A stretch of DNA of 64,000 bases from NCBI GenBank assembly GCA_028281865.1, contig JANQJB010000028.1, positions 1 to 64,000 on the forward strand, written 5' to 3'. Shown here piece after piece: positions 11,702-60,789 of the stretch. Numbering within the stretch: the stretch's first letter is position 1; every line of letters begins with the position of its first letter. The notes under the pieces were generated by a model. It was given only the letters and a program-made list of their open reading frames with translations, ran no database searches and was not told the DNA's origin. The DNA is from Marinagarivorans sp. GTDB taxonomy: Bacteria > Pseudomonadota > Gammaproteobacteria > Pseudomonadales > Cellvibrionaceae. The translations under genes were made by a program, and so were the position numbers.

Positions 11702-11732
11702 AACTGTTAACCTGTTAATATATAGTGGCAGC

Positions 11733-18700: not shown

Positions 18701-18854
18701 ATAACCCTCACAAAACCAAAGAAAGGGACTCTAGAATGACTGTCACCATCTGTTCAAATGAGAGCTATTGACCAAATTGATCAATAAATAATCGCTAATG
18801 TGATCGCGACTCCGATGTGTCCGGATAGGTAACATAATTGTGTGGAATCGTGAC

Positions 18855-32757: not shown

Positions 32758-33681
32758 ATGCTTAAAGTCATCTTTATAAACACTTTTTTTGTATTGGCTA
32801 TATCGATTTTAGCTGCTTGTAGCGGTGACAATGCCCCTGCGGGTTCGAGCTCGTCTTCAAGTAGTTCTTCTTCAAGTAGCTCGTCGTCGAGTAGTTCTTC
32901 TTCATCTAGCTCGTCTTCCAGCAGCTCTTCCTCTTCAAGTTCGTCATCGTCAAGTAGTAGTTCTTCGAGCAGCAGTTCAAGCAGCAGTTCTTCTTCCGGC
33001 AACGTCAAACCGGAAGACCCTTATATGGGAATGCTGGGAACTTTGCCGCAATTAGCTGCGGGTCATCCGCAGGAAAATTGCCCAGAACCAAAAGAGCAAA
33101 CGGGACCCTTTTTGGAAAAAAATGGTTTAGTTGTTTTTGAAGCAGAGAGCACGGCAAAATCCGGAGGTTATAGATTTAGAACTGAACGCGAAAATTATAC
33201 GGGTACCGGTTATTACCATACGGGCAATGGCGGCGGAATTGAATGGAAATTTAAAATTCAAAATGCCGGTGAATACAATATGATTTGGCGTAATTCTAAA
33301 GGCTCGAACAACGATAAATTGAACGATTCCTTTATTTCCATTTCGAATGCGAAAGGTAGACTCTGTGCAAATGGCAGAAAAAAAATATTTGTCGGCGGCG
33401 AGCACCCAGCGGGCACTTGGTCTTGGCATTCGACTTGTGAGGGTTGCGGCGCTCACCCTCCACAGCCGATTACCTGTACGTTTAACGAAGGTGAAGTCGT
33501 GACAATGACCTTAACCCTCCGCTCCAATGGGCATGCAGTGGATCGTATTGTTTGGTACAACGCCGAGCATCAGCCGGAAAACCTGAAGTGGGGCTTCCAA
33601 ACTTTGCTTGACCACGACGACCTTTACAGCTCACCTTATGAACAAGTGCTTGCCAATTTGTGTGAGTCTGAGCAGGAATAA
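32758..33681 (+). CDS. Poly-serine lipoprotein with a carbohydrate-binding-like domain
   Basis: 307 residues. The lipobox is LAACSG (Cys 21), followed by an uninterrupted run of about 50 serines (residues 30-80), the longest linker in the window. The C-terminal 220 residues form a beta-sandwich resembling CBM6/CBM35-type modules: GLVVFEAESTAKSGGYRF, YTGTGYYHTGNGGGIEWKFK, NAGEYNMIWRNSKGSN and MTLTLRSNGHAVDRIVWYN. The 'EAEs...TGtGY...GEY' pattern is typical of galactose-binding-like modules on polysaccharidases. No catalytic domain is attached, so it is probably a surface glycan-binding lipoprotein, held away from the membrane by the flexible linker. Confidence 0.82.
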   Translation: MLKVIFINTFFVLAISILAACSGDNAPAGSSSSSSSSSSSSSSSSSSSSSSSSSSSSSSSSSSSSSSSSSSSSSSSSSSSGNVKPEDPYMGMLGTLPQLAAGHPQENCPEPKEQTGPFLEKNGLVVFEAESTAKSGGYRFRTERENYTGTGYYHTGNGGGIEWKFKIQNAGEYNMIWRNSKGSNNDKLNDSFISISNAKGRLCANGRKKIFVGGEHPAGTWSWHSTCEGCGAHPPQPITCTFNEGEVVTMTLTLRSNGHAVDRIVWYNAEHQPENLKWGFQTLLDHDDLYSSPYEQVLANLCESEQE

Positions 33682-45772: not shown

Positions 45773-47440
45773 ATGCAGATTGTCATTCCGATGTCGGGTT
45801 TTGGTGAGCGATTTCGTAGAGCCGGTTACACCGTTCCAAAACCGCTAATTGAAGTGGAAGGTAAACCAATCATTTCTCATGTAATTGATATGTTTCCTGG
45901 CGAAGAAGGAATCGTATTTATTTGCAATCAAGAACATCTTGATGTGCCAGAATTTCGGATGGCTGAAATAATTTTAGACAGCTGCCCAACAGCAAAGATA
46001 CTCGGAATCCCTCCTCACAAGTTGGGTCCAATTCATGCGATTCTGCAAGTCGAAGAGTTTATTGATAAGTCTGGGCCGGTATTGGTCAACTACTGCGATT
46101 TTACCTGTTACTGGGATTGGCAGGATTTTTGTCATTTTGTTAGTTCTCCAAAATGCGATGGTGCAATTCCCGCATATCGCCATTTTCATCCTCACACCTT
46201 GGGTACAACTAATTACGCCTACATGAGAGAAAAAAATCGCTGGGCTCTGGCAATTCAAGAAAAACAACCTTATACCGATAATCGCATGGAAGAGTACGCT
46301 TCAAGTGGGACTTATTATTTTGCGGACGGCGCAAAAATGCTCGAAACGTTTAAAGAGCTCGAGGAAAAAGATATTAACTTAGGCGGCGAATACTACGTAA
46401 GTTTGGCTTACATACCTATGCTGGAGCGCGGTGCCGATATTGGGATTTATGACTTGCAGCATTTTATGCAGTGGGGAACTCCGGGTGATGTCGATGAATA
46501 CAATGCTTGGTCTAAAGCATTTCATACTTTAAATAATGCTGAGCCAAAATCGCGAACCGCTTTTGGAACCGTTATTGTGCCGATGGCGGGTCTAGGTAAA
46601 CGCTTCGCCGATGAAGGCTATAAACAAACTAAGCCATTAATCGAAGTTTCCGGTAGGTCGATGGTGTTGCAAGCAGTTGATGATCTTCCTGCGGCTGAAA
46701 AGTATGTTTTTATTATGCGTGAAGATATGCCAGGTTACGATGGCACCTGTGAAACCTTGCGAGCTACTTACACGGGGTGTGAGTTGGTAGCGGTTCCGAA
46801 TGTAACCGAAGGGCAGGCGTGTTCTGCTAAGCTGGGAATTGATTCGCTCGACGGAAAGGCAGCGGGCCCGATTACATTTGGAGCTTGTGATTTTGGTTGT
46901 TTATATGACGAAGAACAATTAAGCGCTTTGATCACTCAGGATGTGGACGTGATTGTTTGGGCAGTGCGTGGCAACGTAAACGCGATTCGCCGCCCGCAAA
47001 TGTTTGGCTGGATTGACGCGAATGATAACGGAGACATCAGTAGCGTTTCCGTAAAAACACCTCTGGCAAATCCGGAAAACGACCCGATTGTGCTGGGGAC
47101 GTTTACATTTAAGAATACTGCTGTGTTTAATAAATGCTATGCACGGTTATTGGAGCAGGATGATCGCATCAACGGCGAGTTTTATCTAGATAGCTGTATC
47201 AACCATGCCCTAGCGCTGGGCTTTAAATGTAAAATTTTTGAAGTTGATAGTTATTTATCGTGGGGAACACCTAATGACCTGCGCACGTTTGAATATTGGC
47301 AGTCGTGTTTCCACAAATGGGATTCTCATCCGTATCGCTTGGAGAATGACAGACGCGTACCGAAAGAAAAAGTGAATGATCTTTCTCAGCGGTTTAAGAA
47401 GGTTTTACCTGAACCACTTCAAGAAAAACAAGCAGGTTAA
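45773..47440 (+). CDS. Tandem sugar/polyol-phosphate nucleotidyltransferase
   Basis: 555 residues made of two homologous NTP_transferase domains (about 1-255 and 263-525). Each opens with the nucleotide-binding signature: IVIPMSGFGERFRRAGYTVP with KPLIEV, and VIVPMAGLGKRFADEGYKQT with KPLIEV. Each also has a metal-binding Asp-containing strand (YCDFTCYWDWQDF, and FGACDFGCLYDEEQL) and a YLSWGTPNDL or QHFMQWGTPGDV motif. The fold transfers NMP to a phosphorylated sugar, polyol or similar group. In Campylobacter capsule loci, related single-domain enzymes activate unusual phosphorylated building blocks. Two active-looking halves in one chain are uncommon. It is the first gene of the cluster; the next starts 20 bp later. 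Confidence 0.82.
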   Translation: MQIVIPMSGFGERFRRAGYTVPKPLIEVEGKPIISHVIDMFPGEEGIVFICNQEHLDVPEFRMAEIILDSCPTAKILGIPPHKLGPIHAILQVEEFIDKSGPVLVNYCDFTCYWDWQDFCHFVSSPKCDGAIPAYRHFHPHTLGTTNYAYMREKNRWALAIQEKQPYTDNRMEEYASSGTYYFADGAKMLETFKELEEKDINLGGEYYVSLAYIPMLERGADIGIYDLQHFMQWGTPGDVDEYNAWSKAFHTLNNAEPKSRTAFGTVIVPMAGLGKRFADEGYKQTKPLIEVSGRSMVLQAVDDLPAAEKYVFIMREDMPGYDGTCETLRATYTGCELVAVPNVTEGQACSAKLGIDSLDGKAAGPITFGACDFGCLYDEEQLSALITQDVDVIVWAVRGNVNAIRRPQMFGWIDANDNGDISSVSVKTPLANPENDPIVLGTFTFKNTAVFNKCYARLLEQDDRINGEFYLDSCINHALALGFKCKIFEVDSYLSWGTPNDLRTFEYWQSCFHKWDSHPYRLENDRRVPKEKVNDLSQRFKKVLPEPLQEKQAG

Positions 47441-47460
47441 CGCTGAAAGAGACTGTCTTC

Positions 47461-47865
47461 TTGTTAAAAAAAGAAATTAGCGTTTTTTTAATTGTTGGTG
47501 GCTCAACTGTATTGGTTGACCTGTTTTTTTATAAAATACTTTTAATTTTATCGTTTGCCGGGGTCGATTTAGCTAAGGCTGTTAGTTTTATTATTGGCAC
47601 TATTTACGCGTATTTCGCCAATCGATTTTGGACCTTTAGCCACAATAAGCCTAAAGGTCGATTTATGGTCTTTGTTGTTGTTTATTTGTTGGGTCTAGTG
47701 GCGAATGTAAGTGTTAATTCTGGTGTATTGCGTTTGCTGCCGGAACAACATGAGCTGTCCATTTATGCAGCTTTTCTTATTGCTACGGGTGTTTCTGCAA
47801 CGCTTAATTTTATTGGTATGAAATTTTTTGTTTTTAATAAACGAGTAGAAGAAACTAGCGCATGA
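47461..47865 (+). CDS. GtrA-family membrane protein
   Basis: 134 residues from a TTG start with AAAGAGA ahead. Four transmembrane segments alternate with short loops (EISVFLIVGGSTVLVDLFFY, AKAVSFIIGTIYAYFANRFW, FMVFVVVYLLGLVANVSVNS, TGVSATLNFIGMKFFVFNK). This is the GtrA fold, thought to flip undecaprenyl-phosphate-linked sugars across the inner membrane in three-component O-antigen glucosylation systems. Here its stop overlaps the next start (ATGA), and the next gene is a GT2 enzyme, matching the GtrA-GtrB order. Confidence 0.9.
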   Translation: MLKKEISVFLIVGGSTVLVDLFFYKILLILSFAGVDLAKAVSFIIGTIYAYFANRFWTFSHNKPKGRFMVFVVVYLLGLVANVSVNSGVLRLLPEQHELSIYAAFLIATGVSATLNFIGMKFFVFNKRVEETSA

Positions 47866-48563
47866 AGTTTTCCTTGGTTATCCCGTGTTATAACGAGTCG
47901 GCTAATTTGCCGTTGCTATTCGAACGCTGTAAAAAACTAGTTGATGCGGCCGAGGGAAAAGTTGAAGTTGTTATTGTTAACAATGGCTCTTCTGATGATT
48001 CCGACGAAGTATTAAATCAATTAATGTCCCAGAGCTCGGCTTGTCGCATGGTGAAGGTCGAAGTCAACCAGGGGTATGGCTTTGGTATTTTGAGCGGCTT
48101 AAAGAGCTGCGAATCCGACGTTATTGGCTGGACTCATGCAGATTTGCAAACTGACCCAATGGATTTGCTTGATGCAATTAGAATTTATGAAAAACAGGGC
48201 GAACAGCCTTTTGTCAAAGGCAAACGTTACGGTAGGCCAATTGCAGATACATTTTTTACCGTTGGTATGAGCTTCTTTGAAACAATTCTTATGCGGACCG
48301 GGCTATGGGATATTAATGCGCAGCCAACGCTCTTTCCGAAGAGCTTTTTTCAAACCTGGGATAATCCGCCTTTCGATTTTTCTCTCGATCTATACGCTTA
48401 TTACATGGCCAAAAAAGCCGGTTTGCGTATATTTCGTTTTCCTGTCCTTTTTGGGGAGCGGACCCACGGTGTTTCTAATTGGAATGTCGATTGGGAATCA
48501 AAGAAAAAATTTATCAAACGAACCATTGATTACAGCTTTGAGCTTAAGAAAAAGGTTAAGTAA
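47862..48563 (+). CDS. GT2-family glycosyltransferase (GtrB/DPM1-like)
   Basis: 233 residues. The N-terminus is the GT-A opening LVIPCYNESANLPLLFERCK, followed by VVIVNNGSSDDSDEVLNQLM and the metal and donor motif THADLQTDPMDL. It resembles dolichol- and undecaprenyl-phosphate glycosyltransferases of the DPM1/GtrB group but lacks the C-terminal membrane helices of GtrB, so it is peripheral. It probably loads a sugar onto the lipid carrier that the neighbouring GtrA protein flips. It overlaps gtrA by four bases and the next gene by one base. Confidence 0.9.
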   Translation: MKFSLVIPCYNESANLPLLFERCKKLVDAAEGKVEVVIVNNGSSDDSDEVLNQLMSQSSACRMVKVEVNQGYGFGILSGLKSCESDVIGWTHADLQTDPMDLLDAIRIYEKQGEQPFVKGKRYGRPIADTFFTVGMSFFETILMRTGLWDINAQPTLFPKSFFQTWDNPPFDFSLDLYAYYMAKKAGLRIFRFPVLFGERTHGVSNWNVDWESKKKFIKRTIDYSFELKKKVK

Positions 48564-49159
48564 TGGAGTATATCGCACATCGAATCAATACAGCCCAAGG
48601 GTTGAAAGACTTAGATCCTCGTTATGGAGTGGAGGTCGATATCCGCAGCAACGGGGATGTTATGTATATTCATCATGATCCATTCTGTGATGGTGAGATA
48701 TTTGAGCAGTGGGTTCGGTCGTTCAAGCATGGCACACTCATTTTAAATGTTAAAGAGGAGGGTCTAGAGCAACGCTTGTTAGATGTCATGTCTCAGCATG
48801 GTATTGATAATTTTTTCTTTCTCGATCAATCGTTTCCTTTTCTCGTTAAATGGTCGAAAAAAGGGCTTAATCGCGCCGCCGTTAGAGTGTCTGAATTTGA
48901 AAATATTGAAACAGCACTGACCTTAAAAGGCAAAGTCGATTGGGTTTGGGTGGATTGCTTTACACGTTTTCCGATTACAGGAGAAGAGGCAATAGAGTTA
49001 AAAACTGCCGGCTTTAAGCTTTGTTTGGTCTCGCCAGAGCTACAAGGGCGCGATGCAAAAAAAGAAATTCCCGAGTTGTATGCACTTTTGCAAGAACAAA
49101 ATATTTGTGCGGAAGCTGTATGTACAAAACGCCCCGATATTTGGGAATCGCTGAGTTAA
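48563..49159 (+). CDS. Glycerophosphodiester phosphodiesterase-like protein
   Basis: 198 residues, no signal peptide. The GDPD metal- and phosphate-binding signature is present: IAHRINTAQG (His-Arg), YGVEVDIRSNGD (Glu and Asp) and YIHHDPF (His). The remaining barrel strands can be followed (TLILNVKEEG, NFFFLDQSFPFLVKWSK, VDWVWVDCF). It is shorter than typical GDPDs (about 240-250 residues). Within the cluster, start and stop overlaps on both sides suggest that it acts on a glycerol- or polyol-phosphate intermediate of the pathway. A non-hydrolytic relative is also possible. Confidence 0.75.
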   Translation: MEYIAHRINTAQGLKDLDPRYGVEVDIRSNGDVMYIHHDPFCDGEIFEQWVRSFKHGTLILNVKEEGLEQRLLDVMSQHGIDNFFFLDQSFPFLVKWSKKGLNRAAVRVSEFENIETALTLKGKVDWVWVDCFTRFPITGEEAIELKTAGFKLCLVSPELQGRDAKKEIPELYALLQEQNICAEAVCTKRPDIWESLS

Positions 49160-51213
49160 TGGCGATAAAACTTTTTCGTCATCCACTCTTTTTGGTGGGT
49201 TTAGCTATTCGTTTGGTACTTATTAGTATTGCTGACCCCTATGCAGCATTTACTTGGTATGTGCCGTTTATGGAATCCACTTTAACTGATTTTTCCTTGG
49301 ACCCATGGCAGGGTTATTTGGATGCTGAAGGTGATCAGCAGGCATTTCCTTATGGCTATGTCATGTGGCTAATTTTACTACCTCTGACTTCGTTATTTTC
49401 GATTATTGGGCTTGAAGGTTATTTTGGGTATGCGACTACCTTGTTAGCAGTCGATGCTCTATTGCTCTACGTACTCAAAAAGTTTTTGAATATTCGTAAT
49501 CAGCTATTGCTTGTTGCTTATTGGTTGTCACCCATTGTTATTTTTGCCACTTATTGGCTTGGGTTTAATGATTTGATTCCGGTAACACTTTTATGCTGTG
49601 GACTTTATGCTTTTCGCCAGCAAAAACCAATCTTAAGTGGTGTGCTTTGTGCCGCTGCGGTCTCTGCGAAGTTAAGCATGGTATTGCCGATTCCATTTTT
49701 AGTTATTTACTTGTTTCGCACACGCTCGGTAAGACATTTATGGAAAGGTTTTGCCGTTGGGCTCTCTTGCGGACTAGTTGCGTTTATAGGACCTTTTTTG
49801 TTGTCTGCAGCAGGCATGGTGATGTTGTTCAAAAATCCAGAAATGCAGAAAACATACGAGTTTGCGATTGCGATAAGTGATAGTGTGAAAGTGTACATTC
49901 TTCCCCTCGCCTATTTGTTTATGCTTTATGTTGCTTGGCAGGTGCGCCGAATTACTTTTGAGCTTTTTTACGCAATATTGAGTATCGCGTTTTTATTGGT
50001 GTTGCTATGTACACCAGCCGCTCCTGGTTGGTTCCTGTGGTTTATTCCTCTTGTTTTAGGCTTTTTGGCTCATGGAAAGCTGCAAGATACGATAGTGATT
50101 ACACTTTTTTCATTGGTTTACGTTATTTCAGTCTTTTTAATTGCCGAGCAACCTGTCTTATTGGGAACAACTCTCGCTACGGATACTGCAAATACATTTA
50201 GAAAATTGGCTGGAACTCATGGCATTAATTTGCTGAACACGGGTTTACTTGCCTTAGGCCTGGTTATTGCGTTGCGAATATGGCGCGGTGCGGTAAGCGA
50301 AAATGATTATTTCCGCTTGAGCCGAAAACCTGTTGTATTAGGCGTTGCGGGTGATTCGGGTGCGGGCAAAGACTTTTTAGTCGACGGCCTTATTGATCTC
50401 TTTGGTAAACACTCATCGGTGCATATCTCTGGAGATGATTACCATTTATGGGATCGCCATAAACCGATGTGGCAAGTGCTAACACACTTGAATCCGAAGG
50501 CGAATGATCTGGAAAGATTTGCCAAAGACTTAATGGCACTAATTGACGGGAAGTCAATCAGTTCTCGGCACTATGATCATGAAATTGGTAAAATGACTTT
50601 GCCTCGTGTGCTCGATAGCAACGATTTTATTCTCGCAAGCGGTTTGCATACGATGCATCTACCGATATTGCGAAACTGCTATGACCTGAGCATCTATTTA
50701 GACATCGACGAAGATTTGCGCCGCTATTTCAAAATTGAGCGCGATGTTAAACAAAGAGGACACACACTTGAGAAAGTGCTGGCCTCTATTAAAAAACGCG
50801 AACGCGACAGCGAAAAATTTGTGCGTCCGCAAGCTGAGTATGCAGATCTTGTTTTATCGCTTAAACCAGCGAACCCCGAAGTTTTTAATTCGATAGATGA
50901 ACACAACCAGCTGCGGTTGAAGCTTGTTGTAGTTTCTCGCCTAGGTATGAACGAAGAATCACTCAAACGAGTGCTTGTTGGAATTTGCGGTCTGTATGTC
51001 GATATGAATGTTTCAGAAGAGAAAAATGAAATAGCGCTAACAATTGAAGGTGACACAACAGGAGAGGATATTGCACTAGCAGCCAAGAGTTTGTTTAGTG
51101 AAATTCTTGAGTTTTTAGATTACTCACCTAAATGGAAAGATGGTGTGTCGGGCTTAATGCAGCTCGTTGTTCTTTCGCATATTAATCAGTCTCTGAGCCG
51201 ACGCTTACTATAA
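49159..51213 (+). CDS. Integral-membrane GT-C-like protein fused to a PRK/uridine-kinase-like domain
   Basis: 684 residues from the ATG at 49159, which overlaps the previous stop (TAATG). Residues 1-375 contain about ten membrane helices with an aromatic, acidic first loop (PYAAFTWYVPFMESTL), reminiscent of GT-C mannosyltransferases. Residues 390-570 form a P-loop kinase: Walker A GVAGDSGAGKDFL (395-407), ISGDDYHLWDRH, LTHLNPKANDLERFAKDL and RHYDHEIGKM, which match the phosphoribulokinase/uridine kinase family. The last 115 residues are an unassigned alpha/beta domain. I know of no described protein with this combination. It suggests phosphorylation of a small molecule at the membrane, coupled to transfer. 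The next gene starts at the stop codon (TAATG). Confidence 0.82.
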   Translation: MAIKLFRHPLFLVGLAIRLVLISIADPYAAFTWYVPFMESTLTDFSLDPWQGYLDAEGDQQAFPYGYVMWLILLPLTSLFSIIGLEGYFGYATTLLAVDALLLYVLKKFLNIRNQLLLVAYWLSPIVIFATYWLGFNDLIPVTLLCCGLYAFRQQKPILSGVLCAAAVSAKLSMVLPIPFLVIYLFRTRSVRHLWKGFAVGLSCGLVAFIGPFLLSAAGMVMLFKNPEMQKTYEFAIAISDSVKVYILPLAYLFMLYVAWQVRRITFELFYAILSIAFLLVLLCTPAAPGWFLWFIPLVLGFLAHGKLQDTIVITLFSLVYVISVFLIAEQPVLLGTTLATDTANTFRKLAGTHGINLLNTGLLALGLVIALRIWRGAVSENDYFRLSRKPVVLGVAGDSGAGKDFLVDGLIDLFGKHSSVHISGDDYHLWDRHKPMWQVLTHLNPKANDLERFAKDLMALIDGKSISSRHYDHEIGKMTLPRVLDSNDFILASGLHTMHLPILRNCYDLSIYLDIDEDLRRYFKIERDVKQRGHTLEKVLASIKKRERDSEKFVRPQAEYADLVLSLKPANPEVFNSIDEHNQLRLKLVVVSRLGMNEESLKRVLVGICGLYVDMNVSEEKNEIALTIEGDTTGEDIALAAKSLFSEILEFLDYSPKWKDGVSGLMQLVVLSHINQSLSRRLL

Positions 51214-51974
51214 TGAAAGTTTTTGATGCCAAAATATACCAAAAAGTACCCGATGGTATTTTGTTCGATACCGATAATACTTTGTATGATTATGCGCATG
51301 CCCATACGGCGGCAATGGATGCGATCAAAACTAAAATTACGACTTCTTTGTCTATTAGTGGAGAGCAATTCGATAAGGTATTTAAAGAAGCGCGCAAAGA
51401 AGTAAAAGCTCATTTAGGCAATACGGCATCATCGCACAGCCGCTTGTTGTACTTCCAAAAATTTCTCGAAAATTTGGGTTTGGGTTCACAGGTATTACTT
51501 GCTCTTGATTACGAGCAGACTTATTGGCGAACATTTTTAAGTAACGCTGTGTTGTTTCCGGATGTTCGAGAATTGTTAGATGAGATTCGATTGTTGGGCA
51601 TACCGAGCGTAATTGTGACCGATTTAACAGCTCAAATTCAATTTCGTAAAATAGTCTATTTTGGTTTGGATCACTTTTTTGATTATATTGTGACGAGTGA
51701 AGAGGCTGGCTACGATAAACCACACGAGTCGCCGTTTTTAATTGCACTAAGAAAAATCAAGCCAGAAGGGAATTGTTATTGGATGATTGGTGACAACCCA
51801 GTAAATGATATTCAAGGGGCAAAGGAAAAAATCGGCGCTATTACCCTGCAAAAGGTTCATGAAGGTGTAAAAATAGGCGAGGGTGCCACAGCACCGGATT
51901 GTCTGTTTTATGAATTCAGTGAATTACGTAATTTATTGAAAAAAATAGTAAAAGATACGCGAGTAATAACATGA
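51213..51974 (+). CDS. HAD-superfamily phosphatase
   Basis: 253 residues. HAD motif I is GILFDTDNTLYDYAH, motif II is SVIVTDLTAQIQ, motif III Lys is in AGYDKPHESPF and motif IV is CYWMIGDNPVNDIQGAK. A helical cap (residues 30-115) places it in subfamily I. It has no signal peptide, so it works in the cytoplasm. It overlaps the kinase-fusion gene and the aldolase gene by one and four bases. A kinase, an aldolase and a phosphatase in one coupled unit would fit synthesis of a sugar-like building block by aldol addition and dephosphorylation; that order is speculative. Confidence 0.88.
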   Translation: MKVFDAKIYQKVPDGILFDTDNTLYDYAHAHTAAMDAIKTKITTSLSISGEQFDKVFKEARKEVKAHLGNTASSHSRLLYFQKFLENLGLGSQVLLALDYEQTYWRTFLSNAVLFPDVRELLDEIRLLGIPSVIVTDLTAQIQFRKIVYFGLDHFFDYIVTSEEAGYDKPHESPFLIALRKIKPEGNCYWMIGDNPVNDIQGAKEKIGAITLQKVHEGVKIGEGATAPDCLFYEFSELRNLLKKIVKDTRVIT

Positions 51975-52975
51975 GGCAGTTAGTCACGCAATATAGCGCT
52001 GATGTCGGTAAAGACTTTGATTATGTGCAAGGCGCAGGTGGAAATATTTCTTGGAAAGAAGACAATACACTTTGGGTCAAAGCATCGGGCACCTGGCTGG
52101 CAGATGCAGCGGATCAGGATATTTTTGTTCCCGTTGATCTGGCGTTTATTAACGAGTGTATTGAAAAAAAACAATTCGATGAAAAATTTGTATCAAAAGA
52201 TCCTACGTCGGGTTTAAAACCTTCTATCGAAACAATTTTACATGCGGTAATGCCACATAGAGTGGTTTCTCATACACATTTAATTGATGCTATTTATTAC
52301 CTTGTGCAGCCGAATTACCGTGAATTACTAACGGATCTTTTGGGAGATGAAATACGTTGGGGTGTTGTTAAGTATGCAATGCCAGGCCCCAAACTCGGTA
52401 AGGAAGCGGCGGAGTTGTTAGAAGCTGGTAATTATGACGTTGTATTTTTAGCGAACCATGGAGTTATTGTAGGAGGCGATACGGTTGAGGAAGTTGAAGC
52501 TATATATGAAAATGTAAGGCAAAGTCTAAAAGCAAATTTGCCAAAAATGGAGTTTGCAACTTTAAATCATGCGACAACAAATAAAAGTATCAATGACTAT
52601 CAGGTAAATCCGGATGAGGAATACCAAGGTTTAGCGCTTGACAAAGCGGTAGTCAAGCGTTTGCGTGATCGTTGGGCCGTCTATCCCGATCACGTTGTGT
52701 TTTTAGGTGCTGTCCCACCAATTTTCGAATCCGAGTCGGAACTGCAACACGCGCTAGCAAGTGATGATGTTAATTCGGACTATGCAATAGTTCCTGGCCA
52801 GGGAGTCTTTGTAAAAGCATCAATTAGCATGAGCAAGATTGCCATGCTTAATTTTTATTACCGTGTACTTAAATATACGGAAGATTTACCGAACGTGGCT
52901 GTTTTAAATGAAGCGGAAATATGTGAGTTGCTCAATTGGGATTCCGAGAAATACCGACAGCAGATAGAAAAATAA
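51971..52975 (+). CDS. Class II aldolase/adducin-family protein
   Basis: 334 residues. The N-terminal 215 residues are the aldolase II fold: VQGAGGNISWKEDNTLWVKA (phosphate binding), SIETILHAVMPHRVVSHTHL with zinc-binding His residues, and VVFLANHGVIVGGDTVEEVE with a further His. The C-terminal 115 residues (LRDRWAVYPDHVVFLGAVPP onward) form a second domain absent from short aldolases of this family. Class II aldolases cleave or form ketose-1-phosphates such as fuculose- or rhamnulose-1-phosphate. Here, with a HAD phosphatase, a kinase and a nucleotidyltransferase, it probably makes the building block that is activated by the first gene. The reaction is unproven. Confidence 0.85.
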   Translation: MRQLVTQYSADVGKDFDYVQGAGGNISWKEDNTLWVKASGTWLADAADQDIFVPVDLAFINECIEKKQFDEKFVSKDPTSGLKPSIETILHAVMPHRVVSHTHLIDAIYYLVQPNYRELLTDLLGDEIRWGVVKYAMPGPKLGKEAAELLEAGNYDVVFLANHGVIVGGDTVEEVEAIYENVRQSLKANLPKMEFATLNHATTNKSINDYQVNPDEEYQGLALDKAVVKRLRDRWAVYPDHVVFLGAVPPIFESESELQHALASDDVNSDYAIVPGQGVFVKASISMSKIAMLNFYYRVLKYTEDLPNVAVLNEAEICELLNWDSEKYRQQIEK

Positions 52976-53001: not shown

Positions 53002-55158
53002 ATGAACGATACTACAGACCGTAATGACGAAAGTGTTGCTGCTCAATCGAATGAGCCAAGCGAGAGTGCCGAAGTCGATTCGCAAGGCACTGAAGGTGTT
53101 GTACAAGATCAATACGTAGGTAATCCTGATGTAAGCAGTGCAGATAGCGCATCAGATTCAATAATACCGTTGGCGTCGGAAGCACCGCATAAAGCCGATA
53201 ACAATCAGATATCTAAATCTTTGGCGCTGTCTGGTTTCAAGAGTATTGTTTTAAATCTATTACGCGTACCCTACGTTCCACTCGTAATTTTGCTAGTTTG
53301 TTATGCAGTACTCAATGGTTGGATGACTTTTTCGGCTGAGTATAAAAATTATTTATTTAGCGATATGTTTGGCTATCTAAATCGACCCATACGAATATTT
53401 GTGGGTGATGAAAAGGCTTATGGCTCCTGGGTTGGCTTCGCCCCGTTTTATTCGCGTATTCTTGCAACCCCTTACGCTTGGATGGTTCTTCTTGGAATTG
53501 AAAAATATTTCGTCGAATTTATTCTGGTATTGAATATCCTGATGTCAGTGATATCGGGTTTTGCATTATACTCAATAGCAAAAATTGCGACCGGCAAGAG
53601 AGTTGTTGGTCTCTGTTTGGCTGGAGCTTACCTTTTTTCTTACCCTCATCTCTATTTTAATGCTTTCGTATTGACTGAACCGTTTACCGTACCGTTAATC
53701 ATTACCTGTGTTTGGTTAATGATGATTTGGCGATGTAGCTATAAAATTATTATTTGTGGCTTTTTGTTGGCTGTTGCAGTGGGAATTCGTCCCTCAAATG
53801 GTTTTCTGGGTTTGCCTTTTGCGCTGTATATCTTTCTCGCAGGAGTGGAATTTAAAAAACGTAGTATAAAAGAATGGTGGCAAATAGCGTTTCCCAGGGG
53901 GCTGCGTGCCGCTGCATTTAGCATTGCTTTTTTTACCACTATCTTTGTCATCGTCGCTGAAAATTCTCGGGTCTCAGATGGCAGAATGAAGGGTTTGACC
54001 TCTCATTCAGGGTATAACTATTTGTTAGGGCAAGCACAAGTACATCGGATTTTTAGTTCCTGGGATGGCATCACCTATGTTTTTGTTCCTGCGTCAGTTG
54101 CGCATCACCCAGAATTGGGTACATTGCGCACCAGTGTCCCAATTTACGACTCAAAAAGATTTTTTGAAGAAGGGAATAAAATATTAGACGCTTACCCTCA
54201 GCTTTGGCTAGAGCATGCTAAAAAATATAAATATTTGTTTTTTGATAACCTGTTTCCCGCAGTGCCCGCGCATCCAGGTTTTTTCCCGTTCATGAATGCA
54301 TTTCGATTTATCGTGTTTTATATGTTTTTCTTTTGTGGTTTAACTTATATCACCTTAAAAGAAAAAGATACGCCCAGGTCAGTTATATATTTTAGTTATG
54401 CAGCGTTTTTCTTGCCCGCGGCGTCGTTATATATGTTTACTGTTACGCACAAGTATTTCTTTAACTTCTCATATACGGTTTTTATTCTTTTTGTTTTCGG
54501 CATCTACAGTGCAATTATTCATTTTAAAAAATATAGGAAGTTTATTTATGGCTATATAGCCTTTGTCGTTCTGTCTTCGGCGGCTTATGCTGGATATCGC
54601 CTTAATAGCATTATCAATATCGATCAAAACCTGATGGTAACAATTAGTCAAAATAGCAAGCCCATTAGAAGTCTTGACGATAATCGTAATATTAGCCATA
54701 GTAAAACTTTTCATATTGATCAACTGGAGTTTTTTGAGCGTCATAGGATGGAGCATCCGACTTTAGGTAAATTGGGTTTTAAAACCCATTTCTTTATGGA
54801 TGTTGAAACGGAGATGGAAGTTCTTAAACAAGGGGCTTACCGATTTACGTTTTTTGTTGATGATGGCTACGAAGTGACGATTAACGGAGATCGATTAATG
54901 GGAGTTCGAGGTCCCGTTCGAATGGCGGATGGCCAGAGATTCCGCAGTATAGTGCTTGACCCCGGTGTCCATAAAATTAAAATTCGTATGTATCAGGGTA
55001 GGGACTTACATGGGTTGGCAGGGTATTACAGGAGGGAGGATACATTTCCCCTTGTCCCCGGTTTAATTGCGCAACCAAAAATGGGCAGAGGACTGGCCAT
55101 TGGTTTGGACGATAAGTATACCCGCTTTAGCTCCCCAGGTGTTTCCCAAAATAATTAA
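53002..55158 (+). CDS. GT-C-type membrane glycosyltransferase-like protein with PA14-like C-terminus
   Basis: 718 residues. An unusual acidic, Ser/Glu-rich cytoplasmic tail of about 75 residues precedes the first membrane helix (VPLVILLVCYAVLNGWMTF). About eleven helices follow, with the first periplasmic loop bearing the acidic motif LFSDMFGYLNRP and a later VLTEPFTVP, as in GT39/GT83-type lipid-linked glycosyltransferases. Residues 575-700 (GAYRFTFFVDDGYEVTINGD, DPGVHKIKIRMYQGRDLHG) resemble the PA14 sugar-binding fold. It would use a lipid-linked donor in the periplasm and recognise its acceptor with the PA14 part. It is 26 bp behind the aldolase gene. Confidence 0.8.
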   Translation: MNDTTDRNDESVAAQSNEPSESAEVDSQGTEGVVQDQYVGNPDVSSADSASDSIIPLASEAPHKADNNQISKSLALSGFKSIVLNLLRVPYVPLVILLVCYAVLNGWMTFSAEYKNYLFSDMFGYLNRPIRIFVGDEKAYGSWVGFAPFYSRILATPYAWMVLLGIEKYFVEFILVLNILMSVISGFALYSIAKIATGKRVVGLCLAGAYLFSYPHLYFNAFVLTEPFTVPLIITCVWLMMIWRCSYKIIICGFLLAVAVGIRPSNGFLGLPFALYIFLAGVEFKKRSIKEWWQIAFPRGLRAAAFSIAFFTTIFVIVAENSRVSDGRMKGLTSHSGYNYLLGQAQVHRIFSSWDGITYVFVPASVAHHPELGTLRTSVPIYDSKRFFEEGNKILDAYPQLWLEHAKKYKYLFFDNLFPAVPAHPGFFPFMNAFRFIVFYMFFFCGLTYITLKEKDTPRSVIYFSYAAFFLPAASLYMFTVTHKYFFNFSYTVFILFVFGIYSAIIHFKKYRKFIYGYIAFVVLSSAAYAGYRLNSIINIDQNLMVTISQNSKPIRSLDDNRNISHSKTFHIDQLEFFERHRMEHPTLGKLGFKTHFFMDVETEMEVLKQGAYRFTFFVDDGYEVTINGDRLMGVRGPVRMADGQRFRSIVLDPGVHKIKIRMYQGRDLHGLAGYYRREDTFPLVPGLIAQPKMGRGLAIGLDDKYTRFSSPGVSQNN

Positions 55159-55180
55159 TTTTTCTAAATGGAGTAGTCGC

Positions 55181-55558
55181 ATGAAAGATGACTTGAAAAT
55201 TGTAGATCGCCGTACTTTGATTGCATTTGCTTGCGGTGCACTTTCTGCCAGTGGTGTATTTATTTTTATTCCTGACGGTAGTAAGCCTATTAGTCAACAG
55301 GAGCTCATTGCCGTTATCAAACAGCTTAATCCGCCCAAGAGTCTTGTTGCTCATATTAAACAGACTTGGCTAGGTAAAAGTAATCTACTTGATGAGCTTT
55401 ACGAAAACATTCAAAAAAAGCTTAAAGATATTCCCTCCACCAGGGTTGCAATTGAAGCCCAGATTACGGAAGACTATGAAGCAAATAAAGTAATGGTGGT
55501 TGATGGTTGGATAATGTCTCGTACAGAAGTAGCTCTATGTTTGATGGCGAATGGTTAA
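55181..55558 (+). CDS. Tat-type small subunit associated with a GMC oxidoreductase
   Basis: 125 residues from the ATG at 55181 with GGAG ahead. The N-terminus has a twin-arginine motif and hydrophobic stretch (VDRRTLIAFACGALSASGVF). The C-terminus VVDGWIMSRTEVALCLMANG resembles, from memory, short Tat-signal proteins that precede GMC oxidoreductase genes. These probably act like the gamma subunit of gluconate/sorbitol dehydrogenases, carrying the flavoprotein across the membrane by hitchhiking. The next gene, 6 bp later, encodes a GMC oxidoreductase without its own signal, which supports this. Confidence 0.72.
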   Translation: MKDDLKIVDRRTLIAFACGALSASGVFIFIPDGSKPISQQELIAVIKQLNPPKSLVAHIKQTWLGKSNLLDELYENIQKKLKDIPSTRVAIEAQITEDYEANKVMVVDGWIMSRTEVALCLMANG

Positions 55559-55564
55559 TCGAAA

Positions 55565-57049
55565 ATGATATATCAAGGTGAAGAAATACCTGCAGGTCAA
55601 GAACTTGTCGGAGAAATATGCGTAGTTGGCGCGGGGGCTGCAGGCATTACTTGTGCGCTGGAGTTGGAGCGATATGGTAAAAAGGTTATTCTCTTGGAGG
55701 CCGGAGGCATCGAACGTTCGAAGGAATCACAGCGGCTATATGCGGGAAAATCTACGGGTATGCCGTATAGCATAAGTCATACTCGATTGAGGGTATTTGG
55801 AGGAACGACGGAACATTGGTCTGGGTTTTGTGCGCCGTTAGATAGCGAGGATTTTGAAAGAAAAAACTATATAAAATATAGCGGCTGGCCAATAACAAGA
55901 GAGGAGCTCAACCCATATTACAAAAAAGCTGCAAAAATTCTAAAACTTGGGCAGTATAACGATAATCCAGACCATTGGATTGACGAAAAAAATGGATTTA
56001 TGCGCTATCCATATGGTGAAGATTTAACTGAAAAAATATGGCATTTTAGCCCTCCTGTCCGTTTTGGCCGAGATTATAAAAAGCATTTTGAAAAGTCTGA
56101 GAACGTCGATGTTTTTTTAAACTCTCCTGTTGTGGATATGACGCTAGATGAAAGTACAAGTCGTGTTGGTAGAGTGACGGTCCAAAGTGCTGATAAAAGA
56201 TACTATGTTCGAGCAAAGAAAATAATATTGGCATGTGGGGGCCTAGAAGTTCCTAGACTGTTACTAAATTTTAATAAACAGATAGCCAAAGGTTTGGGTA
56301 ACGAAAGCGATAACGTGGGAAGGTTTTTCCAAGAGCATCCGGAATTTCATCGAGCTGGAACTCTTCTAATTACCGGACCGACGGCTCACTCTAAATTATA
56401 TCGTGGACATACGAGAAAATTAAAAACGCGAATTGCGGGATTTACTCAGATTTCTAACGAGATTAGAGTGCAGAAGAAACTTCTTAGCATGGCATTTTAT
56501 CAGCTTGGGGCGGATCAGTTGGATGATCTTGGAAAAGAAATTCAGTATTATTCAAATAATCTGTATGGACATCAAAAATATAAAGATAACATAAGAGTTT
56601 TTCGCTTTATTGCTGAACAAGAGCCAAATCGAGATTGTCGAGTTCAGCTCGATTCCAAAAAAGATGCTTTGGGTTTGTTTCAGCCAAAACTCAATTTAGG
56701 TCTCACAGATTTTGATATTAGGAGTATGAGAGACTCGGTTTCTACTTTTGCCAATATTATTTCTAAACATAATATCGGCAAAGTAAAACTACTCTATCCT
56801 GAAATGCTTGAATCTACTAGGGAAGTAGTCAAAAAGTATATGGGATGGGGTAACCATCATATGGGGGCTACACGTATGTCTAAAAACCCTAGCGAAGGAG
56901 TCGTAGATACAAATTGCAAGGTGCACACAGTTGATAATTTGTATATTGGTTCGCCCTCTGTCTTTGTAACATCAGGTTGTTCGAACCCAACTTTTACGAT
57001 AGTCGCATTGGCGGTAAGATTGGCAGAACACGTGAATAACACGCTTTAA
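55565..57049 (+). CDS. GMC-family FAD oxidoreductase
   Basis: 494 residues. The FAD-binding Rossmann motif is EICVVGAGAAGITCALELER with the ribose-binding Glu in VILLEAGG. RLRVFGGTTEHWSGFCAPLD positions the isoalloxazine ring. The C-terminal GMC block has WGNHHMGATRMS, with the active-site His, and LYIGSPSVFVTSGCSNPTFT. GMC enzymes oxidise alcohol groups of sugars, polyols or choline. There is no signal peptide; export with the Tat small subunit in front is likely. In this cluster it may oxidise a hydroxyl group of the glycan substituent in the periplasm. The electron acceptor is unknown. Confidence 0.88.
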   Translation: MIYQGEEIPAGQELVGEICVVGAGAAGITCALELERYGKKVILLEAGGIERSKESQRLYAGKSTGMPYSISHTRLRVFGGTTEHWSGFCAPLDSEDFERKNYIKYSGWPITREELNPYYKKAAKILKLGQYNDNPDHWIDEKNGFMRYPYGEDLTEKIWHFSPPVRFGRDYKKHFEKSENVDVFLNSPVVDMTLDESTSRVGRVTVQSADKRYYVRAKKIILACGGLEVPRLLLNFNKQIAKGLGNESDNVGRFFQEHPEFHRAGTLLITGPTAHSKLYRGHTRKLKTRIAGFTQISNEIRVQKKLLSMAFYQLGADQLDDLGKEIQYYSNNLYGHQKYKDNIRVFRFIAEQEPNRDCRVQLDSKKDALGLFQPKLNLGLTDFDIRSMRDSVSTFANIISKHNIGKVKLLYPEMLESTREVVKKYMGWGNHHMGATRMSKNPSEGVVDTNCKVHTVDNLYIGSPSVFVTSGCSNPTFTIVALAVRLAEHVNNTL

Positions 57050-57275: not shown

Positions 57276-58919
57276 GTGTATAGCTATTTTTATAACCAGA
57301 CTCCCAGGTTTAAAAAAAATATCTTTAAATTGCTTGTTTGTAGTTCGATATTGGTTGTTATAGCGGTAGGCTTTTTTCTTAGGTTTGATGGAATTGCATC
57401 GCATGTCACTTATATTGATGAGCTGATGATATTGACGGAAGGTGATTGGAATTCTCGTGGGAAAGAGGATTCTTACTCCTCAAGCTCGGCTCTTGAATTT
57501 GCCAAAAAAGTAGCCGAAAAAAGAGGTGTGACCTATGCTCCTTTGCAGTTTGTTTTTACTTACGCACTAGTTAAGAATTTAAAGCCCTTGTCTATGGAAG
57601 GTGTGGCTGCTGCTCGAATACCTAGTGCAGTGTTTGGTTGCTTATCTATTTTGATTTTCTTAGTAATAATGCTAAGGGTAAATGAGTTTAAAGCATCGTT
57701 TGCTTATGTGTTTCCCCTCGCCTTGCTCGCTGTTTCTCAATTGGCGATTATTAATTCTCAACAAGCTCATACATATTCTATTGGTCTTTTCGCCTTTTTT
57801 TTGCTGATAGCAGTATTGACCTATTTCGTGTATCTACAGAATTTATGGTTGGTATTGCTGCTGACCTTTTTTCTCGCTCTTATACCAACGTCTAATTATT
57901 TGGTTATTCCGATATTGCTTTCGTCAATATTTATTAGTGTTATCTGTATCTTCGTAAGGTCCAATCGCGATAACCAATGGAAAACAACATCTTACAAACT
58001 AGTTTTCATGTCTTTGCCAATCATGATCAGTGTTTTAGTCGCTTTATGGGTTTTGGTTAATAAGTCCGGTGCATCTATTCCTTGGTGGGTAAGAAGAAAT
58101 TATGCATTGAAAGAAAATACAGATTATTCAATATTTGAGTTGGTCAGCGTAATTATAAGAAATTTGAGTCATATAGGGGAGGTTGTTTTTATAAATAGTG
58201 AAGTCATTATTTTAAATAGTATTCCAGCCGTGGCTTCTGCTATTTTTATTGTATTAGGTGTTGCGTTGTTTTTGATAAAGCGTAAAAAACTCAATTGTAC
58301 TTTGCTTCCTTTGCTGCTGGTTGTGTCTAGCTTTGTGGTGTTGATTGCATTATTTTTGAATAAATCTATTGCTCTTGCTCCAAGCAGACACGCGTTAGTT
58401 TTTATTCCGATATTGCTCATAGTCATTTTTTACAGTCTTCTATATGCCGAGAGAATTTTTTCCGATAGTAAGTTATTGCTTTCGACATTTAATACAGTGA
58501 TTGTTGTACTTTCTTTTGGCTTGGTTATTTCTGGTGTCACAAATCATTTAAATACAGCATACAAAAAAGAAGAGGCAATTTCAGCTGAAAGAGTAATGAT
58601 ATTTAGTAAGCAATTGAACATTAAAACTGTTTTAACAGACTGGAATAGCTATAATAAATTATATCTTCAGTTTGAAAAGTACATAAAATCGGGTGATATT
58701 ATATTAAAAGCCACTGGAGACGAGAAGAAATTTCCAGAGCCGCCTTTCCTTCTCGTTGGTTCGGCTGTAGAGCAAAAGGGTGTATATTGGTCGCATAGAT
58801 ATCGTCGACATCGTTCGAAGATATTATATGAAGAGAGATATGATTATGATATGGAGCCTAGTACGAGGATACGCTATTGGCCTAATCAAATGGTTATATA
58901 TCTAGTAGAGAAAAAATAA
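57276..58919 (+). CDS. GT39-like integral membrane glycosyltransferase
   Basis: 547 residues from a GTG start. About eleven membrane helices. The first periplasmic loop holds HVTYIDELMILTEGDWNSRG, with an Asp-Glu pair where GT-C enzymes have their catalytic acidic residue, and YAPLQFVFTYALVKNLKP. The C-terminal 100 residues are soluble and end RYWPNQMVIYLVEKK. It has a convergent paralogue at 59065-60789 with the same motifs. It lies 226 bp behind the GMC gene and may have its own promoter. Confidence 0.82.
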   Translation: MYSYFYNQTPRFKKNIFKLLVCSSILVVIAVGFFLRFDGIASHVTYIDELMILTEGDWNSRGKEDSYSSSSALEFAKKVAEKRGVTYAPLQFVFTYALVKNLKPLSMEGVAAARIPSAVFGCLSILIFLVIMLRVNEFKASFAYVFPLALLAVSQLAIINSQQAHTYSIGLFAFFLLIAVLTYFVYLQNLWLVLLLTFFLALIPTSNYLVIPILLSSIFISVICIFVRSNRDNQWKTTSYKLVFMSLPIMISVLVALWVLVNKSGASIPWWVRRNYALKENTDYSIFELVSVIIRNLSHIGEVVFINSEVIILNSIPAVASAIFIVLGVALFLIKRKKLNCTLLPLLLVVSSFVVLIALFLNKSIALAPSRHALVFIPILLIVIFYSLLYAERIFSDSKLLLSTFNTVIVVLSFGLVISGVTNHLNTAYKKEEAISAERVMIFSKQLNIKTVLTDWNSYNKLYLQFEKYIKSGDIILKATGDEKKFPEPPFLLVGSAVEQKGVYWSHRYRRHRSKILYEERYDYDMEPSTRIRYWPNQMVIYLVEKK

Positions 58920-59064: not shown

Positions 59065-60789
59065 TTAGATTTGCTTTTGTGTGGGCTCAAATAGGTAGGC
59101 CTTCATTTGGTTTGGCCAATACGAAATTTTATCAGAAGGCTCAAAATCATATTCCTTTCTAGATTCATAAATCAAATTTGATCGATATCTTTTATATCGT
59201 TGTCCGTTATATAAATATCTGAATTTCAATGTGTCTTGCCCCACCACTAAGAACTTCTTCTTGGGAAGCTTTGATTCATCCCCTTCCAAAATTACCAGCT
59301 CTATTTTGTCCGAAAGAATATAAGGTTCTAAGAAAATATAAAATTTATCGTAACTATAATAATCGGTTGCGATTGTTTTTACATCATTTTCTTCCGCTAG
59401 CGTGACTATTTTCTTTGCGTTGAAAGATTCTTGCTTGTTATATGAGAATGTTTTGTATTGCAAGGCGGAAAAAATTAAAACAAAAATTGCTACCGTCGTA
59501 TTAAATACGTTCATATGCCACTTGCCGATGTGATATCGGTCGAGTACGGTGTAAAAAAAAGATATTGAATAAAATAAGAGTATTACGCTCGCTGCTCCGA
59601 AAATAAGCATATGGCGACTAGGGGAAATTGCCATTTTTTTAAAGAAAAATAGAGAAATGAAAATCAAAAAAGTAAACAACGTGCATAATAACGGGAATAG
59701 GGACTGATTTTTAAAAATTCTAATATTAGATTTTACGAGATGCGCAAAAGAGACAAATCCTATGATGCTAAGCATGAAAAATACGGAAAGAATTAGAGTA
59801 TTTGCTGATTTCATTCCTCCAATTTTAAACATGGACTCAAGCGTATAATAAATGTTTGTTATGAGTTCGTGTGTTAGTGCAGCAGTTGAAGAATAAAATT
59901 CTTTCATTTTGAATGATTGTACCCACCATGGAATTGACATTGATGCTTTGTGCTCTAGCGTCCAAACAGCGAATGCTATTGAAAGGCCAAATGCTGGGAT
60001 CAAAAACAATATTTTAAAGATTGATAGTTTATAGTAAGTGATTGATTTTTTCTCAGGAAAGGCGATATAAAACCAAGCGATTGCTACGAAAGACACAACG
60101 ATTGGGATTAATAAATAATTGGAAAACGGGAGTAGCATAAAGATTATGCTTAATGCCCCGCACAAAAGAATATTTTTGCTTTTTATTATAATCAATAAAG
60201 AATAAATAAGAAAAATAAATGCAAAAACCCCTAACATGTATGGGTGGGCCTGCTGAGAGTTTATAATATAGATTTGCGCTGATGAATATAGTGATAATGG
60301 GAGTAGAATAGCGGAAGTGATTTTTCTGTTATTGATTTCATACAGTAATAGAAACATGAATATCAGCGATAATATTCCTGCGATGACACTGGGGATCCTG
60401 GCTTGTTCTAGGGCTATTTTCGAGAGTGGGCGAGCTCCTTTTACAAATTGATAAGTGGCCAGAAATTGCAACGGAGCATAGCTTACGCCACGGGCATCAA
60501 ATAATTTTTTTGTGAATTCATATGAAGAATTGCTGTGGTAAGAATATTCTTTGCCGTTAGAGTTCCATTGCCCCTCGCTCAAAATCATTAATTCGTCTAT
60601 GTAGGTCACATGATTTTTATAGCCATCAACTCGAAAGAAAATTCCACTGACGAGAATGATAATAATGATCAGGACGTATATTTTATCCCAATTAAGAGGT
60701 TTTATTTTTTGATGGTTTAGAACTGTATAAGACTTATTATAATTTTCATCACCGTTAATGCTAGAAAACCTCGCCAAAGAAGTATACAT
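59065..60789 (-). CDS. GT39-like integral membrane glycosyltransferase (paralogue)
   Basis: 574 residues. It shares with the preceding plus-strand protein HVTYIDELMILSEGQWNSNG, GVSYAPLQFLATYQFVKGAR, QARIPSVIAGILSL, NSQQAHPYMLGVFAF, SIPWWVQSFKMKEF, SPSRHMLIFGAA and an end of the form SYWPNQMKAYLFE. It has about 40 additional N-terminal residues. It is convergent with its paralogue (145 bp between stops), so the pair arose by an inverted duplication or by separate gain. Both would transfer sugars from lipid carriers on the periplasmic face; acceptor and donor are unknown. Base composition is more AT-rich than the housekeeping genes of the window. Confidence 0.82.
   Translation of the reverse strand: MYTSLARFSSINGDENYNKSYTVLNHQKIKPLNWDKIYVLIIIIILVSGIFFRVDGYKNHVTYIDELMILSEGQWNSNGKEYSYHSNSSYEFTKKLFDARGVSYAPLQFLATYQFVKGARPLSKIALEQARIPSVIAGILSLIFMFLLLYEINNRKITSAILLPLSLYSSAQIYIINSQQAHPYMLGVFAFIFLIYSLLIIIKSKNILLCGALSIIFMLLPFSNYLLIPIVVSFVAIAWFYIAFPEKKSITYYKLSIFKILFLIPAFGLSIAFAVWTLEHKASMSIPWWVQSFKMKEFYSSTAALTHELITNIYYTLESMFKIGGMKSANTLILSVFFMLSIIGFVSFAHLVKSNIRIFKNQSLFPLLCTLFTFLIFISLFFFKKMAISPSRHMLIFGAASVILLFYSISFFYTVLDRYHIGKWHMNVFNTTVAIFVLIFSALQYKTFSYNKQESFNAKKIVTLAEENDVKTIATDYYSYDKFYIFLEPYILSDKIELVILEGDESKLPKKKFLVVGQDTLKFRYLYNGQRYKRYRSNLIYESRKEYDFEPSDKISYWPNQMKAYLFEPTQKQI

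Follow-up and report, generated by a model that had tools for sequence, protein, structure and literature searches.

Positions 45773-52975 (+ strand) of a 64,000-nucleotide stretch of Marinagarivorans sp. DNA (assembly GCA_028281865.1, contig JANQJB010000028.1, positions 1 to 64,000), referred to here as the window, carry seven genes that, together with an eighth directly downstream, we read as a self-sufficient Gtr-type cassette, which would make its own activated sugar and place the product on a surface glycan. We assign this reading a probability of roughly 60%. Its broader component, that the genes form a Gtr-like glycan-modification cassette, is very likely, while the narrower assignment of the sugar to the pentose class is tentative and falls a little short of even odds. 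The Gtr-type reading is based on the combination of conserved genes for GtrA and a lipid-linked-sugar synthase with a hypervariable membrane gene, which is the signature of phage gtr cassettes.

A previous sequence-only reading of this DNA had listed seven open reading frames (ORFs) following each other with overlaps or very short gaps, and all seven are indeed intact on the + strand, in the order nucleotidyltransferase, GtrA, family 2 glycosyltransferase (GT2), GDPD-fold protein, GT-C/kinase fusion, HAD phosphatase, and class II aldolase. The nucleotidyltransferase and GtrA genes are separated by +20 bp, and the successive junctions thereafter are GtrA/GT2 (-4 bp), GT2/GDPD (-1), GDPD/fusion (-1), fusion/HAD (-1), and HAD/aldolase (-4). 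The domain calls of that reading were likewise recovered, comprising two NTP_transferase domains, GtrA, GT2, the phosphoribulokinase-type kinase domain, HAD, and Aldolase_II, with the GDPD-like call confirmed by the AlphaFold2 fold. An eighth gene (53002-55158), absent from the sequence-only reading, begins 26 bp past the aldolase gene. The G+C content of the cassette block is 41.6%, compared with 48.7% in the left flank and 37.6% in the right flank. A gap of about 330 bp precedes the cassette, beyond which lies a divergent methionine-cycle gene group, and promoter and terminator scans returned no more sites than in shuffled sequence.

The gene set recurs widely. A scan with the GDPD-fold protein, taking one genome per species, returned 168 relatives, of which 80 were examined, and gene content was counted in the 58 whose contigs extend at least 6 kb to either side of the GDPD gene, which is itself present in 100% by construction. 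In these 58, the fusion and HAD genes were found in all, the aldolase and nucleotidyltransferase genes in 55 each, GT2 in 52, and GtrA in 38, being missing from 20; the gene order was mostly the same. The full order as in the window was present in 30/58 (one with an extra, distant GT2 gene), and 10 more showed it without GtrA. GtrA is a dispensable part of the cassette, as is GT2 in Roseomonas. A search anchored on the nucleotidyltransferase found the set in three of four other genomes and not in the fourth (41% identity); two of its loci, L101 and L102, are the same as L070 and L063 and add nothing to the count. Scaffolds L049 and L050 of Pseudomonas piscis MC042 show no difference in any of the 20,591 bases compared, so that they were counted as one locus and not taken as duplication by the cassette itself; either the assembly contains the region twice or a large region is truly duplicated in the genome.

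Carriers come from dozens of genera, both within the Proteobacteria and outside them, including Pseudomonas, Erwinia, Yersinia (Yersinia proxima), Massilia, Rugamonas, Polynucleobacter, Nitrosomonas, Lysobacter, and Roseomonas, as well as Legionella metagenome-assembled genomes (MAGs), nitrifiers, and MAGs of other phyla. This recurrence across many genera excludes a single-locus oddity. The sequence-only reading, which had proposed looking for the same gene order elsewhere, is answered positively on that point; the combination that it singled out in the window is a widespread mobile Gtr-like module. Among relatives of the host, the GDPD gene occurs in only 3/244 genomes of the order and the nucleotidyltransferase gene in 5/369 of the class (the window's own being counted in both), a rarity that suits horizontal transfer.

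The eighth gene encodes a polytopic membrane protein of 718 aa with no Pfam match, and Pfam scans of the variable membrane genes returned mostly nothing, with one weak match to PMT_2. When 20 loci were compared, the proteins encoded directly past the aldolase gene were similar in 30/190 pairs, whereas the GDPD-fold, fusion, HAD, and aldolase proteins were similar in 190/190, and the nucleotidyltransferase, GtrA, and GT2 in every compared pair. A further polytopic ORF lies nearby in 47/58 loci. For gtr cassettes, a variable gtrC alongside conserved gtrA and gtrB has been reported (PMC3688519), and because the contrast seen here is the same, we read 53002-55158, from its position and variability, as a presumed GtrC-like acceptor-specific transferase. 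The sequence-only reading had taken the seven genes as a unit to make, activate, load, flip, and transfer a substituent, with the GT-C enzyme as the transferase; the single functional unit stands, but the role given to the GT-C enzyme does so only by half, the hypervariable eighth gene being, by analogy with gtrC, the likelier acceptor-specific transferase.

The nucleotidyltransferase (45773..47440, +; 555 aa) consists of two complete NTase domains in tandem (PF12804/PF00483; PHROG 3980, E 1.2e-103). Site 1 bears the signature GxGxRF...PKPLI and site 2 GxGxRF...KPLI, with acidic motifs YCD109 and ACD373, respectively, and since the signatures and the Asp of the C-D motifs are invariant across 27 relatives, both sites are probably active. 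The GtrA-family membrane protein (47461..47865, +; PF04138, E 5.9e-18), which has a TTG start, is the presumed flippase of a lipid-linked sugar. The GT2 (47862..48563, +; PF00535, E 1.6e-19) is a short soluble form of 233 aa that lacks the membrane part of GtrB; its closest NCBIfam family is ArnC (1.9e-14), its NGSxD and HADxQxD motifs are invariant in 21 relatives, and its predicted activity is that of an undecaprenyl-phosphate sugar synthase.

The fusion protein (49159..51213, +) had been described from the sequence as joining a GT-C enzyme to a kinase, a claim that the structure model (predicted local distance difference test, pLDDT, 90) bears out. Fold matches of the modelled N-terminal half (approximately residues 1-385) confirm a GT-C membrane enzyme that is folded like the Dol-P-Man/Glc transferases, with Z scores of 26.5 to GPI mannosyltransferase I, 25.5 to ALG3, 23.9 to ALG6, and 18.0 to ArnT; D136 is invariant and a DPW motif largely conserved among relatives. 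The C-terminal half (approximately residues 386-684; PF00485, E 3.5e-33) matches whole phosphoribulokinases (PRKs), including their C-terminal domain (Z 28.5 over 285 residues, 30% identity). PRK is the best-scoring family for the fusion relatives and is matched by 45/45 of those aligned, in all of which kinase and GT-C are fused, while the window protein scores 198.7 bits against PRK07429, under the curated cut-off of 236. Like PRKs, including the cyanobacterial structures 9qkp/9qko, the cassette kinase keeps the fold and the P-loop, DDYH, YDHxTG, and RDxxxRGH motifs; unlike them, it is fused to a membrane GT-C, resides in a host genome in which no RuBisCO match was found, and has a changed EGLH motif, which reads SGLH in the window and most relatives and TGLH in the Roseomonas group, the Glu being sometimes replaced by Thr, Asn, or Ala. 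The lack of a RuBisCO match in the host excludes a Calvin-cycle role for this kinase, and papers on the cyanobacteria-specific PRK offered nothing relevant to it. The joining of a metabolic kinase to a GT-C enzyme is a rare fusion.

For the HAD phosphatase (51213..51974, +; 253 aa, DTDNT motif), the top-ranked family is NF053830, ribulose-1,5-bisphosphate (RuBP) 5-phosphatase, which is matched by 24/24 relatives with the best E-value of any family, the window protein scoring 155 bits against a curated cut-off of 330. The class II aldolase (51971..52975, +; 334 aa; PF00596, E 1.1e-19) is related to the N-terminal part of rhamnulose-1-phosphate aldolase/dehydrogenase, and its catalytic Glu87 and the zinc-binding triad His101, His103, and His163 are invariant in 30/30 sequences. 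The GDPD-fold protein (48563..49159, +; 198 aa) has no Pfam or NCBIfam match, including to the Pfam GDPD model. Its AlphaFold2 model (pLDDT 94.8) shows the TIM-barrel fold of GDPDs (3ks5, Foldseek E 1.5e-6), and the HR, ExD, HD, and NxKE motifs are invariant among relatives, as is Asn62, which, matched by eye, occupies what we take to be the position of the metal-ligand Glu in the GDPD "iEiK" strand.

From these assignments, the following route can be proposed. The class II aldolase would supply or remodel a ketose or pentose phosphate, to which the phosphoribulokinase-like domain would add a second phosphate, giving a pentose or pentulose 1,5-bisphosphate; the HAD protein would take off the terminal phosphate to leave a sugar 1-phosphate, and the nucleotidyltransferase would convert this into a nucleoside diphosphate (NDP)-sugar. 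The GT2 would then move the sugar onto undecaprenyl phosphate, GtrA or a substitute would flip the lipid-linked sugar, and its attachment to lipopolysaccharide (LPS) or another surface glycan would fall to the GT-C half of the fusion, to the variable membrane protein, or to both, with the variable gene selecting the acceptor, a role that GtrC has in Salmonella and Shigella. A phosphodiester intermediate may be the substrate of the GDPD-fold protein.

The cassette was found in mobile settings in relatives of the window locus, although not in the window itself. Two IMG/VR phage contigs carry it. In one of them (L110), spanin, tail fibre, and baseplate genes flank it at one end and a tail sheath gene at the other; in the second, it adjoins terminase and scaffold genes. 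Over 14.7 kb, the left part of L110 matches a contig of a Pseudomonas isolate (L015), in which mutS follows the cassette, at 99.98% identity. In L110 (14705-20415 and 1-852), the contractile-tail genes flanking the cassette are accompanied by an OafA-type acyltransferase-like ORF near the tail fibre gene, and this is likely a lysogenic conversion region. The cassette is present in 2/5,426 Escherichia coli genomes and is plasmid-borne in both; on the plasmid of strain ES3 (L117, 2901-15077), all eight genes are bracketed by two IS26 copies that point the same way, beside a broken AIDA-repeat gene, in what looks like an IS26 composite element. Azospirillum and Hirschia also carry it on plasmids. 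LPS and O-antigen settings are represented by L012, where it lies between MsbA-like transporter and Kdo-transferase genes, and by Erwinia (L028), where it adjoins wzm/wzt-like and gnd-like genes, these labels coming from reading the translations.

A related row of genes occurs in the cyanophages S-SM2 (L007, 10004-14063) and Bellamy (L006, 7776-14090), in which a nucleotidyltransferase, a GT61-type gene (tested in S-SM2 only), a class II aldolase, a small HAD protein, and a GDPD-like gene are consecutive, the GDPD likeness being a 40-column profile match (E 6.7e-5) together with a reading of motifs. Since nucleotidyltransferase, aldolase, HAD, and GDPD recur there with another transferase, the arrangement suggests that these four produce the building block and can be combined with different transfer genes. 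Gene 206 of Bellamy encodes a nucleotidyltransferase fused to an RpiB-type pentose-phosphate isomerase.

This fusion is one of the pieces of evidence, each weak alone, behind the pentose assignment, the others being the resemblance of the kinase to PRK and of the HAD protein to RuBP phosphatase, and the haloarchaeal precedent. In haloarchaea, a RuBP 5-phosphatase is paired with a FucA-type class II aldolase that acts on ribulose 1-phosphate, as part of a non-carboxylating pentose bisphosphate pathway that degrades nucleosides and in which RuBP comes from ribose-1,5-bisphosphate isomerase (PMC9700705). The sequence-only reading had named polyol or sugar phosphates in general as substrates to assay; the kinase and HAD family resemblance points instead to a pentose or pentulose bisphosphate.

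Several observations sit poorly with the proposed scheme. The Roseomonas cluster has neither a GT2 nor a GtrA orthologue, and no close GT2 match was found elsewhere in six Roseomonas genomes, in a search that had no positive control. Two GT-C-like proteins for one sugar are one too many, and the GDPD-fold protein has no step in this route; a MAG contig of 13.5 kb (L013, 7015-7602) bears its gene next to one for a Wzz-like chain-length protein but no other gene of the cassette. The HAD score below the cut-off makes this protein a relative, not a member, of the RuBP 5-phosphatase family, and the replacement of the EGLH Glu, mostly by Ser, means that the substrate or mechanism of the kinase may differ. 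A ketose 1-phosphate is not anomeric, so that the aldolase product is no obvious precursor of an NDP-sugar without isomerisation. The sugar, nucleotide, and transfer roles are predictions from sequence, synteny, and fold. Separately, the Roseomonas cassette (L066, 13503-15943) is followed by an ORF of 374 aa and a polytopic ORF resembling Wzx, both without Pfam match, which may replace GT2 and GtrA.

In an alternative reading, the product is a cytidine diphosphate (CDP)-activated polyol or ketose phosphate, of glycerol-, tetritol-, or pentulose-phosphate type, the substituent is joined through a phosphodiester, and editing or hydrolysis is the task of the GDPD-fold protein. A ketose 1-phosphate is the expected aldolase product, two conserved NTase sites could yield two activated compounds, and the GDPD-fold protein, constant in the GDPD-anchored set, is kept in the nucleotidyltransferase-anchored loci too. 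Nevertheless, GT2, GtrA, and the Dol-P-sugar-type GT-C fold belong to glycoside-transfer enzymes, and the set has no LicD, TagB/F, or CDP-alcohol transferase, which leaves this alternative unlikely. We consider equally improbable that the substituent is a ketofuranose activated by a novel route. Xylulose or ribulose side branches occur in some O-antigens, homologues of the kinase, HAD protein, and aldolase all handle ribulose phosphates, and the related phage nucleotidyltransferase carries the fused RpiB; ketoses, however, require activation at C2, and no cassette-bearing strain with a solved ketose-containing glycan was found in the literature, nor did the literature on xylulose-containing O-antigens provide a gene cluster for comparison.

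A metabolic explanation, in which kinase, HAD protein, and aldolase form a catabolic or salvage shunt (ribulose 5-phosphate to dihydroxyacetone phosphate and glycolaldehyde) that merely lies beside a glycosyltransfer set, would account for the match of the last two to the haloarchaeal route (PMC9700705), with the PRK-type kinase supplying RuBP. This is very improbable, given the fusion of the kinase to GT-C in every aligned relative and the persistence of HAD, aldolase, and nucleotidyltransferase with the transfer genes across phyla, phages, and plasmids. We retain the self-sufficient Gtr-type cassette as the preferred reading. Its most far-reaching form, a new activated-sugar route that passes through a pentose or pentulose 1,5-bisphosphate and belongs neither to carbon fixation nor to the breakdown of nucleosides, with the kinase tethered to an outward-facing GT-C, in a receptor- or serotype-changing cassette spread by phages and plasmids, is a possibility that we regard as somewhat doubtful.

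Further genes in the window may be mentioned here. Directly past the cassette (55178-57049, +) lie genes for a small protein without meaningful family match and a GMC-family FAD oxidoreductase, which could oxidise a surface sugar. They are followed by two mutually similar polytopic proteins (57276-58919, + and 59065-60789, -) that share HVTYIDELMIL and IPWWV stretches, have no Pfam match, and are possibly extra GT-C transferases for the same lipid-linked sugar. At 10520-14282 (-), there are two large genes for secreted proteins, one of which contains CxxCH-like motifs and a long region rich in serine; serine-rich linkers are common in the window, occurring also at 2286-2828, 18840-21767, and 32758-33681.

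The full-text literature, a search that leaves most subscription literature outside, yielded no description of the gene set, and an already described capsule or O-antigen pathway was set aside on this basis; the earlier statement that the combination matches no known pathway thus holds in that no characterised pathway for the whole set was found. The precursor pathway of the cassette is probably undescribed, while Gtr-type glycan modification itself is known. Known gtr cassettes modify O-antigens with sugars that the host already makes, whereas a cassette that supplies the precursor itself can add a residue foreign to the host, altering phage receptors and serotype in one transfer. Its occurrence in environmental Pseudomonas and the other bacteria named above, and on plasmids of two E. 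coli strains, makes it relevant to phage-host ecology and serotyping, and the seven-protein set offers a defined route to finding a probably undescribed nucleotide sugar.

Among the known systems closest to the cassette is the guanosine diphosphate (GDP)-D-glycero-D-manno-heptose pathway (GmhA, HddA, GmhB, HddC), in which a kinase adds the anomeric phosphate, a HAD enzyme removes the terminal phosphate, and a nucleotidyltransferase activates the product. The proposed succession of kinase, phosphatase, and nucleotidyltransferase is the same, but the enzymes are unrelated; the cassette kinase has the phosphoribulokinase fold and not that of GHMP kinases, there is no sedoheptulose isomerase, and an aldolase and a GDPD-fold protein are added. 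With the haloarchaeal pathway, the cassette shares a RuBP 5-phosphatase-type HAD protein and a class II aldolase, yet the aldolases belong to different subfamilies, the cassette has a PRK-like kinase where the archaea use the isomerase as source of RuBP, and no glycosyltransferase takes part there. As in ArnC/ArnT and the Dol-P-Man enzymes (DPM1, PIG-M, ALG3), a GT2 would load polyprenyl phosphate and a GT-C enzyme transfer the sugar outside, the difference being the fusion of the cassette GT-C to a kinase. With gtrABC, it has in common GtrA, a hypervariable polytopic protein, and phage carriage including P2-type loci (PMC3688519), and its GT2 would load polyprenyl phosphate as in gtrABC. While gtrABC comprises three genes and uses the uridine diphosphate (UDP)-glucose of the host as donor, the present cassette contributes five further conserved metabolic genes or domains (kinase, phosphatase, aldolase, nucleotidyltransferase, GDPD-fold protein) as well as a second GT-C, likewise conserved, and by virtue of its own donor pathway it falls outside the strict definition of gtrABC.

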